From: Thermogemmatispora aurantia
Lineage (GTDB): Bacteria > Chloroflexota > Ktedonobacteria > Ktedonobacterales > Ktedonobacteraceae
Direction: 5' to 3'
NCBI RefSeq assembly: GCF_008974285.1
Contig: NZ_BKZV01000005.1
Coordinates: 124,001-188,000 of the forward strand
DNA length: 64,000 bases
Made by a program: the position numbers and the translations under genes. Below are positions 11,367 to 22,105 of the stretch, one piece after another (position 1 is the stretch's first letter; each line of letters begins with the position of its first letter). The notes below the pieces were generated by a model that was given only the letters and a program-made list of their open reading frames with translations, was not told where the DNA came from and did not search any database.

Positions 11367-11465
11367 GCCACAGAAAGTCTTGTCTTGAGGTCCTAGCTGG
11401 CCGCTCTTCTGTTGAGAAAGCTGTCATCTGCCTGCTCCCAGGTGCAGGGAACGAATGAGGACGTT

Positions 11466-12350
11466 ATGGAAGTGATCAAGATCTCTCCCCGCGGCTACTG
11501 CTATGGCGTCGTTGACGCTTTGCAGATTGCTCGTCGGGCTGCCAAAGATCCAATGCTGCCCCGTCCAATCCATATCATTGGCCAGATCGTTCACAATCGT
11601 CATGCCATTGAAGAGCTGACCGCCCTCGGCATCATTACCCTCGATGGGCCGAACCGTGCGGCGATCCTTGAGCAGGTCAAAGAAGGAACAGTGATCTTTA
11701 CCGCGCATGGCGTCTCGCCCCTGGTCAAGGAGCGAGCACGTGAGCGCGGCCTCTACTGTATTGATGCTACCTGTCCTGATGTGACCAAGACCCATGATCT
11801 GGTGCGCGAGCTGGTAGCGGAAGGCTACTATATTCTCTACATTGGCAAGAAAGGACACCCTGAGCCCGAGGGAGTCATGGGAGAGGTCCCGGGCCATATC
11901 AGCCTCATCGAGAGCGAGGCCGACGTCGATGCACTGCAGCTCACGCCCGAGCAGGAAAAGAAACTGGCCATCTCGACACAGACCACGCTCTCGCAATGGG
12001 ACACGCAGCGCATCATCGACTACATCAAGGCCCGTTATCCCCAGGTCAAGGTCTACATTGACATCTGTGCTGCCACACAGCTCAGACAAGAGGCAGTGGT
12101 GCGGCAGGCGAAGGGGGCCGATCTTACGATCGTGGTAGGTGATCCCCGAAGTAACAACACCAACCGTCTTGTGCAAGTCTCAGAAGAGCTAGCCGGCGTT
12201 CCTGCCGTCCGCATCGAAGATCTCTCCGAGCTGAAACCGGAATGGCTCAAAGGCAAGAGGCGCGTCGCGGTGACAGCTGGAGCCTCGACCCCCAGTCAGA
12301 TCACGCGCGAAGTGATCCGTTTTCTTGAGCAATACGAGCCAGAGCCCTAG
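11466..12350 (+). CDS. ispH: 4-hydroxy-3-methylbut-2-enyl diphosphate reductase (last step of the MEP pathway)
   Basis: The 294-residue IspH/LytB carries a [4Fe-4S] cluster that reduces HMBPP to IPP and DMAPP. The three cluster cysteines are visible at Cys12 (PRGYCYG), Cys103 (DATCPDVTK) and Cys201 (DICAATQ). Substrate-binding residues are in [14 protein letters not shown] and STQTTLSQW. Start at 11466 is supported by GAGG five nt upstream; an in-frame codon 54 nt earlier lacks support. The gene follows the GluTR-like domain gene and converges with folD. Presence of ispH indicates the non-mevalonate isoprenoid route. Confidence 0.95.
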
Positions 12351-12646: not shown

Positions 12647-13486
12647 TCACTGGGGTCCAAGCAGCGTATGGCGAATCAGCGTCAGGTGGGTTAGAGGGCC
12701 AAGACCACCGGGTACTGGGGTCAGAAATGAGGCCACGCGGGCTACGCTCTCGCGATCGACGTCGCCCACCACCTTCCCATCAACCGTGGTAATGCCGGCG
12801 TCCAGCACCACCGCCCCTGGCTTCACCATCTCGCCGGTGATCAGCCCTGGCTTGCCCGCGCTGACTACCAAAATATCCGCGCTGCGGGTAATCTCAGCCA
12901 GGTCGCGGGTCTGTGAGTGGCAGATGGTGACCGTAGCATCCTCACGCATCAGCGTCAGCGCGATCGGCTTCCCCCCGATATTGCTCCGACCCACGATGAC
13001 CGCATGCTGACCGGCCACGCGGATGCCAGCCTCGCGCAGCACCGTTAGCACCACATCAGCGGTCGAGGGGATAAAGCTAGGAAAGCCGAGCAGGAGATTG
13101 CCGGCATTGCGTGGCCCGAGGCCATCAACATCCTTTTCGGGGCGCAGGACCTCGGTCACCACGCGCTGGCGAATATGGTCCGGCAAAGGCAACAGTAGCA
13201 CGATCCCGTCAGTCGTTGGGGCCTCGCTCAGCGTGGCGACCTCTGAGCGGATCTCCTCCTCATCTACCTCGAATGGGTAGGCCAGCGTCACGCAGCTCAG
13301 ACCAATGTGGCGGCAGGAGCGGACCAACTGGCGGCTGTAGACCTCAGCGGCGGGATCACGGCCAATGATAATTTGCGCCAGGCGCGCCGAGCGGCGGTGC
13401 TGCTTGCGAAACTCGGCTGCCTCCTGCTGTAACTCAGCCATCATGCGTGCCGCCAGGGGGCGGCTGTCGAAGATCGTAGCAGACAT
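12647..13486 (-). CDS. folD: FolD-like methylenetetrahydrofolate dehydrogenase/cyclohydrolase with altered active site
   Basis: The 279-residue protein spans the whole FolD family: folate domain with EVYSRQLVRSC (46-58), DGIVLLLPLP (93-102), PEKDVDGLGP (116-125), the nucleotide loop VIVGRSNIGGKP and the C-terminal PVPGGLGPLT. FolD interconverts methylene-, methenyl- and formyl-THF. Compared with E. coli FolD, whose numbering coincides exactly, the catalytic Lys54 is Leu and Gln98 is Leu, while Tyr50 and Asp121 remain. Loss of the Lys should abolish cyclohydrolase activity; the dehydrogenase may persist. Start at 13486 has GGAGG seven nt upstream. The call to the family is firm; the usual bifunctional role is doubtful. 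Confidence 0.88.
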   Translation of the reverse strand: MSATIFDSRPLAARMMAELQQEAAEFRKQHRRSARLAQIIIGRDPAAEVYSRQLVRSCRHIGLSCVTLAYPFEVDEEEIRSEVATLSEAPTTDGIVLLLPLPDHIRQRVVTEVLRPEKDVDGLGPRNAGNLLLGFPSFIPSTADVVLTVLREAGIRVAGQHAVIVGRSNIGGKPIALTLMREDATVTICHSQTRDLAEITRSADILVVSAGKPGLITGEMVKPGAVVLDAGITTVDGKVVGDVDRESVARVASFLTPVPGGLGPLTHLTLIRHTLLGPQ

Positions 13487-13646
13487 CAAGAAGCCTCCTT
13501 CCTCCACAGGCGAAATCTCCTGGCGTCCATCATACCATAGCCGAGAATGCGGCGCTGCGTCGTTCTACCCTGTGGTCCGGCGCCCAGGATAGAACGACGA
13601 CCAGTAAGCATGGTCGAGAAGGAGAAAGGGAGCGAGGAAGGCGCTT

Positions 13647-19466: not shown

Positions 19467-20621
19467 CTAGCCCTGCTGAGAGGCACCAGGCAGAGCCACC
19501 TCGGCCTGGTGGGCATCAGCTGATCGCTGCGCCTGGGCTGGCCGTTCCCTTCCCACTGCTGGCTGGGCTTCGGGCTGACGCTGCAAGCGGCTCCGCTGCT
19601 GCTGATCACGCCAGCGCTTCAGGTCCAGTAGACGACGGTAAGCCTGATAGACGAGGGGCTTGTAGGCCAGGTCATGGGTCTCCAGGAAGCGCAGAGGATA
19701 GCCGCCGAAGCCTTGCTTGAAAATGTAGACTCCCCATAGCTCTTGCCCTTCCTCGAGGACGTCGGGAATGCCACGGAAGTTGTAATACCAGCAACCATGC
19801 TCTTTGGCCCAACGGATGGCCGTCCATTGGAGCAGGTGATTGGGCATGCGATTGCGATGTTCGTTTGAGGAAGCTCCGTACATGTACCAGCTCCAGCGAC
19901 CAAAGCGCAAGGCGAGTAGACCAGCGATAGCTTGCCCTTCGTATTCGGCCAGGAAGAGTGCAGCACGGTCGCCTTCGCTGTAGAGGCGCATGACGTCCTC
20001 GTAGTGAGCCTTCTCATGAATGAAGAAGTGATCACGCTCGCTGGTGATGCGGTAGAGGCGGTAAAAGGTATCCAGGTCTGCTGGCCCTTCGCCCCTGCGT
20101 ACACTGACTCCCTTGCGGGTGGCCAGGCGAATGTTATAGCGCCACTTCTCTTTCATGTTGGCCAGCAAGGTCTGCTCGTCGGGGCGGATGTCCAACACCC
20201 ACTCGTGACGGATGTGCATGGCGTAGGGCGTGCGGCGGAAACCGTGCCTGCGCAAGGCGGCCAGCCAGCTCTCATCGCCGTCGGGCACGCTCGGCTCTAC
20301 CTTGAGCATGAAGGCGCCACGCCGCCGGGCCTCGCGGCGCACAAAATCCAGAAGCTGGCCCAGGGCCGGTGAGCTGGGATCGTCAATGACCGGCCCACGC
20401 GGAGCGTAAAAATAGGTTCCCAGCACCGGCAGGCGCGAGACAAGGACGAGCATGGCGGCGCAGAGCTGTCCCCGATCGTCGACAACTCCGGTATACAGAG
20501 CTTCGGCTCCAAGATGAGGGGCCAGCTGCCCCCACTCATAGGACTGGGTAATATTGCAGCAAACCGAGGCAGCTACAAAGTCGTTCCACTGCTGCCGGTT
20601 GCTAATAAGGCGCGCTTCCAT
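19467..20621 (-). CDS. FemAB/FemX-like peptidyltransferase (GNAT fold), paralog 1
   Basis: The 384-residue protein has the double-GNAT architecture of FemAB/BacA-like acyltransferases: ITQSYEWGQLAPHLG near the N-terminus, WVLDIRPDEQTLLANMKEKWRYNIR in the middle (a typical Fem stretch) and GVYIFKQGFGGYPLRF near the C-terminus. Fem proteins use aminoacyl-tRNA to add residues to the peptidoglycan bridge peptide; that role here is inferred from family only. The last ~50 residues are hydrophilic and Gln/Arg-rich. Start at 20621 is the ATG with GAGGGA upstream. A close paralog lies 260 nt upstream on the same strand. Confidence 0.82.
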   Translation of the reverse strand: MEARLISNRQQWNDFVAASVCCNITQSYEWGQLAPHLGAEALYTGVVDDRGQLCAAMLVLVSRLPVLGTYFYAPRGPVIDDPSSPALGQLLDFVRREARRRGAFMLKVEPSVPDGDESWLAALRRHGFRRTPYAMHIRHEWVLDIRPDEQTLLANMKEKWRYNIRLATRKGVSVRRGEGPADLDTFYRLYRITSERDHFFIHEKAHYEDVMRLYSEGDRAALFLAEYEGQAIAGLLALRFGRWSWYMYGASSNEHRNRMPNHLLQWTAIRWAKEHGCWYYNFRGIPDVLEEGQELWGVYIFKQGFGGYPLRFLETHDLAYKPLVYQAYRRLLDLKRWRDQQQRSRLQRQPEAQPAVGRERPAQAQRSADAHQAEVALPGASQQG

Positions 20622-20881
20622 AAATTTTCCCTCAGAGATGGACAGGTGCAACCAATGTTCATTATCTCTCGCTTTATCAGTGCGATCGATAGCAGATCAG
20701 CGCTCACAGGAGAGACAGTTTCGCGCCCCTGGCTCAGGACGATGACCGGCGCCTGACCTCTTCTTCATTTGCTAGGGCCAGCCAGCCGCCTGCTAGAGCA
20801 AAAGCGCCAGCCCCCTCTCCTCTCCACGTTATCGCTGCTTACGCAAGGCTGGTGGCGAACAGGCGTGAGCGAGGAGGGCGC

Positions 20882-22105
20882 TCACTGGCTGGCGCCGGAG
20901 GACGAGGCTGGCTCTGCTGGTCGGGCGCCTTTCTCCTTTTGGCTGTCGCCCTGCGCCGAGGTCTCAGGTCGAGCGGTTTGACCGGCTGAGCCAGGCTTGC
21001 CTCCCTGCCTGCCACGCGCCGCCCGCTCTAGCTCGACTCGCCGCCGCTCGGCTCGCCTGCGCTCGCGCCGAATCTCTACCAGCTTGCTCCAGAGGCGATA
21101 CATCAGGGGGCGATAGACATAGTCCTGCGTTGGCATGTTGAGGCGCGAATAGCCGCCAAAGCCTTGCTTGTATTCGTAGACGCCCCACATCTCTTCTCCA
21201 GGCTCCAGCACCTCGGGAATAGCGCGAAAATCGAAGTGCGTGCAGCCCTGCTCTTTGGCCCACTGGATACAGCGATACTGCAGCAGATAAGCGGCCTTCA
21301 GGTTGCGCTTATGGTTGGCGGTGGCCCCAAACATGTCCCAACACCAATTTCCAAAGCGGATCAGCATCTTGGCGGCCAGGGCCTCGCCTTCGTGTTCGGC
21401 CAGGAAGAGCACCGCATCACCGCGCGTGGCGAACTGACGCAGGATCTCGCGATGGTAGTCTTTGCTGTGGATAAAAAAAGCGTCGCGCTCGCTGGTGATC
21501 TTCAGCAAGGCATAATAGGCGTCAAAATCAGCATCGCTGCTGGCTTCTCGCACGATGACACCCTTGCGCCCGGCCACGCGCACGTTCTGCCGCCAGGTCA
21601 TCTTGAAGTTGGCAAAGAGGGTTTCTAGAGGAGGCCGGATATCCAGCACCCAGCTGCGCCGTGGGTGGACAGCATAGGGGTAAGTACGAAAGCCGAGCGC
21701 GCGGTAAGCACTCTGCCATTGCTCTAGACGCGGGTCATCATCGGCGATGTTGGGTTCGAGGCGCAGCACCACGCTGCCTTCGCGGCGGGCGATAGCGTGG
21801 GCCTCTGTGATCAACGCGGCAAGGGCTGGCGAGTCGGGAGCCTCGACCGTGGGACCGCGGGAGCTGTAGAGCCAGTTGAGCTGCAGACCGGGCAGGCGAA
21901 CGGGAAGCGGCACCGGAGCGACTGAGACCATCATGGCGCCGATCAGCTGGCCTCCTTCCAGTGCGCCCAACCGGTAAATGCGCCCACCAAGGTACTTCGT
22001 TAGCTCACCCCACTCATATGACTGGAGCAGATGCCCACCTGGCTGCGACCTCAGAAAGGCGTTCCACTGCTCTCGATCTGTGATTTCCTGCACAACAACT
22101 GTCAT
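20882..22105 (-). CDS. FemAB/FemX-like peptidyltransferase (GNAT fold), paralog 2
   Basis: The 407-residue paralog of the next gene downstream shows the same order of motifs: LLQSYEWGELTKYLG, WVLDIRPPLETLFANFKMTW, SERDAFFIHSKDYH and GVYEYKQGFGGYSRL. The C-terminal ~60 residues form a charged, low-complexity tail of different sequence from paralog 1. The two genes probably arose by tandem duplication and may add successive residues to a cell-wall cross-bridge, as FemA and FemB do (inference). It lies 26 nt downstream of a GNAT gene and probably shares its transcript. Confidence 0.82.
   Translation of the reverse strand: MTVVVQEITDREQWNAFLRSQPGGHLLQSYEWGELTKYLGGRIYRLGALEGGQLIGAMMVSVAPVPLPVRLPGLQLNWLYSSRGPTVEAPDSPALAALITEAHAIARREGSVVLRLEPNIADDDPRLEQWQSAYRALGFRTYPYAVHPRRSWVLDIRPPLETLFANFKMTWRQNVRVAGRKGVIVREASSDADFDAYYALLKITSERDAFFIHSKDYHREILRQFATRGDAVLFLAEHEGEALAAKMLIRFGNWCWDMFGATANHKRNLKAAYLLQYRCIQWAKEQGCTHFDFRAIPEVLEPGEEMWGVYEYKQGFGGYSRLNMPTQDYVYRPLMYRLWSKLVEIRRERRRAERRRVELERAARGRQGGKPGSAGQTARPETSAQGDSQKEKGARPAEPASSSGASQ

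Follow-up and report, generated by a model that had tools for sequence, protein, structure and literature searches.

A FolD paralogue with leucine at sites 54 and 98 in Thermogemmatispora aurantia, a probable dehydrogenase-only enzyme

The window, by which we mean the whole 64,000-nucleotide stretch of the Thermogemmatispora aurantia genome analysed here, encodes a FolD paralogue on its minus strand at 12647..13486. The open frame runs from an ATG at 13486 through 279 codons plus the stop, and the plus strand of the same segment is interrupted by stops. In the source genome it is found at G000:C5:136650-137486 (100% self-match). A likely ribosome-binding site, AAGGAGG, can be read at 13494..13500 on the minus strand, 7 nt 5' of the ATG, and this spacing favours the ATG at 13486 over the GTG at 13507 as the start. 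Tail to tail with folD lies a gene at 11412-12350 on the plus strand, whose product we take to resemble IspH and whose relatives are also found near this type of folD in the window's family. Elsewhere in the window two related-looking genes stand side by side at 19467-20651 and 20882-22105 on the minus strand, and their products presumably resemble FemX/FemAB-type transferases.

The window protein belongs to the FolD superfamily. The profile search gave 86.8 bits for PF00763 (cut-off 32.8, E 1.6e-24) and 187.1 bits for PF02882 (cut-off 27, E 1.8e-55). The AlphaFold model has a pLDDT of 93.2 and a pTM of 0.89. Among the 50 matches listed it agrees with FolD-family crystal structures at TM scores of 0.85-0.94 by query length, and with 1b0a at 0.89 by the same measure. 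The sequence is 38% identical to E. coli K-12 FolD (L086), and close named relatives are those of Thermogemmatispora tikiterensis (97%) and T. carboxidivorans (95%). None of the best 25 of the 30 matched NCBIfam FolD models reaches its own cut-off (top score 282.2 bits vs 421); all of these 25 call the protein bifunctional, which is the usual default annotation of FolD.

The active site has lost both residues by which a bifunctional FolD is recognised. We aligned the protein with E. coli FolD and found no one-sided gap over the first 235 residues, so that the E. coli numbering applies unchanged, as the first-pass annotation of this DNA had claimed. In this register codon 54 (TTG, 13325..13327, minus strand as for all codons below) gives Leu for the catalytic Lys54 of bifunctional FolD, and codon 98 (CTG, 13193..13195) gives Leu for the Gln98 of FolD generally, just as that annotation had read them. 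A third polar loss had escaped it, namely Ser47 to Ala at codon 47 (13346..13348). In what follows we call this copy and its clade type B, the other FolD of the same genome and its counterparts type A, and the aligned sequences with lysine at site 54 Lys54 rows; the conservation counts omit type B rows of 200 aa or less, which drops that of genome G003, and type A rows of 150 aa or less. Site 47 is Ser in canonical FolD (human Ser49), in 41/41 type A rows and in 47/47 Lys54 rows, and Ala in 32/33 type B rows.

The residues expected to hold the folate and the cofactor are still in place. Tyr50 (13337..13339) and Asp121 (13124..13126) are kept, again in agreement with the earlier reading; the 33 type B rows carry Tyr (27), Phe (5) or Ile (1) at the former site, and 34/34 carry Asp at the latter. 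The NADP site, which had been described as intact, is so at the three predicted contacts of the NADP 2'-phosphate, whose role is given in PMC3368264: Arg167 of the GRSN motif (12986..12988; human Arg173), conserved in 34/34 type B rows, and His190 and Ser191 of the CHS motif (12914..12919; human His196 and Ser197), with His in 34/34 rows and Ser in 31 and Thr in 3 of the 34. Four further positions are invariant marks of type B. Gly171 (12974..12976) is found in 34/34 type B rows vs Val in 39/40 type A and 46/47 Lys54 rows; Ser209 (12860..12862) in 34/34 vs Ala in 39/40 and 43/47; Ala230 (12797..12799) in 34/34 vs Val in 39/39 and 42/47. Residue 263, in E. coli numbering, is Leu in 34/34 type B rows.

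Neither a sequencing error nor a shifted alignment explains the missing lysine. In the type B rows longer than 200 aa (n=34, window included) site 54 is Val or Leu in 34/34 and site 98 is Leu in 33/34, and a sequencing or frame error is rejected since the relatives carry the same residues. The gap-free first 235 residues rule out a shift that masks a lysine, as do the six lysines of the protein (28, 118, 173, 212, 222 and 238), none of which is close to site 54 in the sequence. A structural alignment placing another lysine at the site had been named in the first-pass annotation as evidence that would count against it; the model matches FolD crystal folds, and a substitute lysine is not expected there.

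Mutants of the E. coli enzyme give some idea of what such replacements may do. According to passages of PMC5688156, K54N retains ~19% of the dehydrogenase activity with undetectable cyclohydrolase, and Q98H retains ~8% of the dehydrogenase and an estimated 1% of the cyclohydrolase. By analogy, these values support the earlier statement that the window protein should be at most a dehydrogenase, or have a new role. The two mutants are carolacton-resistant laboratory selections with reduced activity and concern the same two sites, whereas in the window protein aliphatic residues have taken these sites naturally and long ago. Q98H lost 92% of the dehydrogenase activity, so Leu98 could cripple the window protein. 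PMC3368264 describes Lys and Gln as jointly favouring hydride transfer. Passages of a later computational study (PMC9173628) report no noticeable catalytic role for the lysine in the dehydrogenase step and do not settle what it does in the cyclohydrolase step. With the base of that step unsettled in this source, one could argue that the window protein still hydrolyses methenyl-THF via another residue and is bifunctional after all; we consider this hardly probable at all, given that no lysine lies near the site and that cyclohydrolase activity was undetectable in E. coli K54N.

The source genome encodes a separate FchA-type protein, and no canonical FolD was found in it, a pair of findings on which the first-pass annotation had proposed to check its reading. 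The sole other FolD found in this genome (94.7% complete) is the type A copy on contig C2, which is 45% identical to the window copy and has Tyr50, Ile54, Gln98 and Asp121; with Ile54 in this single other copy found, we reject the idea that the genome encodes a canonical FolD at another locus. Its scores also stay below the cut-offs of the best 25 of the 31 matched NCBIfam models (top 323.1 vs 421). Directly upstream, overlapping the folD start by 4 bases, is an FTCD_C gene (protein P0003; PF04961, E 4.5e-61). The FTCD partner domain PF02971 has no match anywhere in the genome, and P0003 has the FTCD_C domain without that partner, as FchA does. Its best structural relative is the methenyl-THF cyclohydrolase 7vg4 (E 6.5e-33), and the only NCBIfam family it matches is the FchA equivalog at 189.4 bits; as this is below the cut-off of 275, P0003 could be a cyclodeaminase. 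The annotation had also proposed a search for fhs, and Fhs has no match in the source genome or in any of 47 genomes of the class Ktedonobacteria, by which we reject Fhs as the source of formyl-THF.

Our analysis suggests, with a probability of about 0.7, that the window protein is a monofunctional NADP-dependent 5,10-methylene-THF dehydrogenase and that FchA performs the cyclohydrolase step. The folate would be held via Tyr50 and Asp121 and NADP via Arg167, His190 and Ser191. With Leu54, Leu98 and Ala47 the protein would not hydrolyse 5,10-methenyl-THF, and the FchA-type cyclohydrolase, encoded at the other locus beside the type A folD, would take over that step. In passages of PMC5688156, E. 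coli K54N is described as surviving slowly without cyclohydrolase since the step can be spontaneous, and hence FchA need not be essential. As for the order of events, an early FolD of the Chloroflexota may have lost Lys54 in a lineage that had FchA, and the Lys54-less gene may then have been duplicated at the base of the Ktedonobacteria. The type A copy would have stayed beside fchA, and the type B copy, now elsewhere, would have lost Gln98 and Ser47 as well.

The pairing of FchA-type genes with type A folD recurs in the class. We found FolD in 46 of the 47 class genomes and exactly one FTCD_C gene in each of 40. The alignment of Ktedonobacteria FolDs that had been suggested in the first-pass annotation has lysine at site 54 in 0/76 rows read there, with 1 further row not read. 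Each of the 40 FTCD_C genes precedes a type A folD in the same orientation, and an FTCD_C gene is found beside 0/35 type B rows. Type A occurs in 42 genomes (in one as a fragment only) and type B in 35; 31 genomes have both, 11 have type A without type B and 4 the reverse. Six genomes, all drafts of 58-89% completeness (G004, G008, G010, G017, G045 and G046), have FolD with no FTCD_C match. Four of them also have no type A, and the piece of type A in G017 sits at the edge of its contig; both would be expected were the gene pair to lie in an assembly gap. The draft G045 is an exception to the pairing, with a type A folD (Ile54) and no FTCD_C within 1.5 kb upstream.

The type B copies form one clade (SH-aLRT 100) of four families, which joins type A with a support of 91. 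This topology points to a duplication, close to the root of the class, of a gene that was already without Lys54. The window copy has dN/dS values of 0.07, 0.05 and 0.06 against three relatives, the third with saturated dS, and type B is thus under strong purifying selection; a pseudogene is rejected on these values, and the earlier remark that the gene is not simply decaying stands. A related idea is that type B is a weak and redundant spare dehydrogenase in the course of being lost, and indeed the search found no type B in 11 class genomes in which type A is present. We regard this as quite improbable in view of the same low dN/dS values, of a single clade of four families that dates back almost to the origin of the class, and of an intact frame with a good ribosome-binding site.

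We compared the surroundings of type B in 34 loci, many of whose stretches end at contig ends, and found an ispH-like gene in 13 and a TPR gene in 13, all of them in the window's own family. Several of the further shared frames are antisense to folD, and no metabolic neighbour of type B is clearly conserved across the class in these loci.

In part of the class a division of labour by cofactor is possible between the two copies. In families f3 and f4, 12 of the 40 type A rows have Ala for Arg167 and Ile or Val for Ser191. All 12 genomes with such an altered type A carry type B, and type A keeps the Arg and the Ser in all 11 class genomes without type B (Fisher p 0.017, with kin treated as independent). 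The pattern suggests that a genome can do without type B only if its type A accepts NADP, and the altered type A looks NAD-linked. The Ala at the Arg167 site is not diagnostic by itself, as E. coli FolD also has Ala there. Both copies of the window's family keep the NADP residues, so a cofactor split does not explain the two copies in the source genome.

An alternative reading of type B is that it has been repurposed, either as an NADP(H)-linked oxidoreductase acting on another folate, a pterin or an unrelated substrate, or as a binding partner. Ser47, Lys54 and Gln98 have all given way to small or aliphatic side chains, with near fixation at 47 and 98 across the four families. Positions 171, 209, 230 and 263 are invariant, the gene does not adjoin fchA, and it seems dispensable, since no copy of it was found in 11 of the genomes that have type A. 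On the other hand the folate-holding residues persist (Asp121 in 34/34, Tyr or Phe at 50 in 32/33 type B rows), type B is kept wherever in the class type A has lost the NADP contacts (12 genomes), and 30 of 76 sole FolDs elsewhere in the phylum are also without Lys54 and Gln98. We therefore hold repurposing to be unlikely. Its more specific form, in which the losses of Ser47, Lys54 and Gln98 and the fixed changes of the cofactor domain led to a neofunctionalised NADP(H)-linked oxidoreductase with a substrate other than 5,10-methylene-THF, seems to us slightly less likely again; if it were true, the Ktedonobacteria would have a line of folate or pterin chemistry yet to be described, and the protein is predicted to be insensitive to carolacton under this reading as well.

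The loss of Lys54 extends over much of the phylum. We searched 151 Chloroflexota genomes and found FolD in 145, FTCD_C in 116 and PF02971 in 64. Eighteen of the 145 FolD-bearing genomes are class members, and the 127 others form the table outside the class, for which the list of fused FTCD genes was compiled by eye from match coordinates. Only Lys54-less FolD together with a separate FTCD_C gene is found in 80 of the 127, and the same without any FTCD_C in 2 (G166 and G173). A Lys54 FolD occurs with no or only fused FTCD_C in 38 and with a separate FTCD_C in 4; two genomes without FTCD_C have a Lys54 and an Ile54 copy in tandem, and in one (G170) the site was not read owing to an alignment gap. 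Outside the class a separate FchA-type gene is thus present in 80/82 genomes with only Lys54-less FolD vs 4/44 genomes with a Lys54 FolD (Fisher p 9e-26, with kin treated as independent). Among the four, PF02971 immediately adjoins FTCD_C in G062 and G138, which therefore look like split FTCD of histidine breakdown, and the FTCD_C matches of the remaining two are weaker (3e-30 and 2e-22).

These counts do not represent ~80 independent events. In a quick tree of 126 FolD rows (LG+G4, SH-aLRT only, reduced from 219 by removing near duplicates and any row not longer than 230 aa), nearly all the Lys54-less FolDs fall in one clade and three changes at site 54 suffice. Most simply, Lys would have been lost once, lost again among the tandem copies and regained in G160, gain and loss being indistinguishable by this method. 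The first-pass annotation was right that the window protein is unusual at sites 54 and 98, but the protein is not a lone oddity, the loss of Lys54 being old and spread across much of the phylum. In class and phylum together the Lys54-less rows have Ile, Leu or Val at site 54 in 166/166 (two genes counted twice), and hence the site is not under free drift. Among 76 sole Lys54-less FolDs with a separate FTCD_C outside the class, site 98 is other than Gln in 30 and Leu in 5; if sole copies work, the double change is compatible with a working dehydrogenase.

Several other FolDs of the phylum have unusual sites. Those of G173 (L293) and G166 (L294), genomes without an FTCD_C match, are very divergent, with Phe50, Leu54, Val98 and Glu121. 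Nine Lys54-less FolDs (L246, L255, L264, L266, L279, L282, L286, L288 and L289) have Glu at the pterin-binding Asp121. G148 (L192 and L183) and G098 (L194 and L185), which have no FTCD_C match, each carry an Ile54 folD in tandem with a Lys54 folD; these perhaps encode a dehydrogenase and a cyclohydrolase-competent partner. L232 of G160 is a Lys54, Glu98 FolD within the Lys54-less clade, in a genome whose sole FTCD_C shares its reading frame with an FTCD domain, and a return to the bifunctional state is possible.

The separation of the two steps between FolD and FchA is already known. The phylum-wide extent of it, the double-changed paralogue and the cofactor pattern were not found in print in the literature searched, and at the level of titles and passages we found no paper on Lys54-less FolD in Chloroflexota. 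If the dehydrogenase-only reading is true, the label "bifunctional" is wrong for much of the Chloroflexota. The phylum would then offer a natural set of dehydrogenase-only FolDs with a variable site 98, in which the separate roles of Lys54 and Gln98 could be addressed, and a two-paralogue system for the NAD/NADP split in one-carbon metabolism. The K54N dehydrogenase of E. coli is completely insensitive to carolacton, a natural inhibitor of FolD (passages of PMC5688156), and so the Lys54-less FolDs of the phylum are predicted to be naturally insensitive.

The nearest known systems resemble the window protein in different respects. The bifunctional enzymes, E. coli FolD and the DC domain of human MTHFD1, have in common with it the Pfam domains, the fold, the length, Tyr50 and Asp121, and its NADP 2'-phosphate residues are as in the human enzyme; it differs from them in the replaced Ser47, Lys54 and Gln98 and the fixed changes at 171, 209, 230 and 263. 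Yeast Mtd1 (PDB 1edz) is a dehydrogenase without cyclohydrolase activity. It matches the window protein only weakly (E 9.6e-7), and the likeness is in monofunctionality. For Clostridium perfringens, Aluri et al. (2016), a paper cited in PMC7219735 that names Fhs in its title, reportedly described a dehydrogenase-only FolD and a separate FchA. This would likewise be a case of two proteins for dehydrogenase and cyclohydrolase, as predicted here, whereas the source genome has two FolD copies and no Fhs match. Passages of other papers mention a separate FchA in some organisms (PMC7219735), fhs-fchA-folD clusters in acetogens (PMC10213532) and a monofunctional methylene-THF dehydrogenase of Peptostreptococcus productus (PMC6443876), the last being similar by this description.

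Outside the Chloroflexota Lys54 can persist in the presence of an FchA-type gene. We searched for FTCD_C in the genomes of 30 out of 80 FolD loci, 27 of them non-Chloroflexota, and found a Lys54 FolD together with an FchA-sized FTCD_C gene in 5/27; FTCD_C is in a long frame in two more. In four of the five, no FolD was found near the FchA gene in the stretches fetched around it. No FTCD_C-like frame lies beside 72 Lys54 loci within flanks of up to 4 kb, and among the same 80 loci the sole one with such an adjoining frame is L065, a Chloroflexota locus with Ile54. The fifth genome, that of a Peptococcaceae member (G185), has a Lys54 FolD (L017) and a second FolD (L305), which takes a long branch of unsure placement in the tree and is distant in sequence from the window protein. 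L305 adjoins the FchA gene and has Asp47, Ile for Lys54 and Phe for Gln98; in this single outside case read, a Bacillota locus, the linkage to fchA goes with the loss of Lys54.
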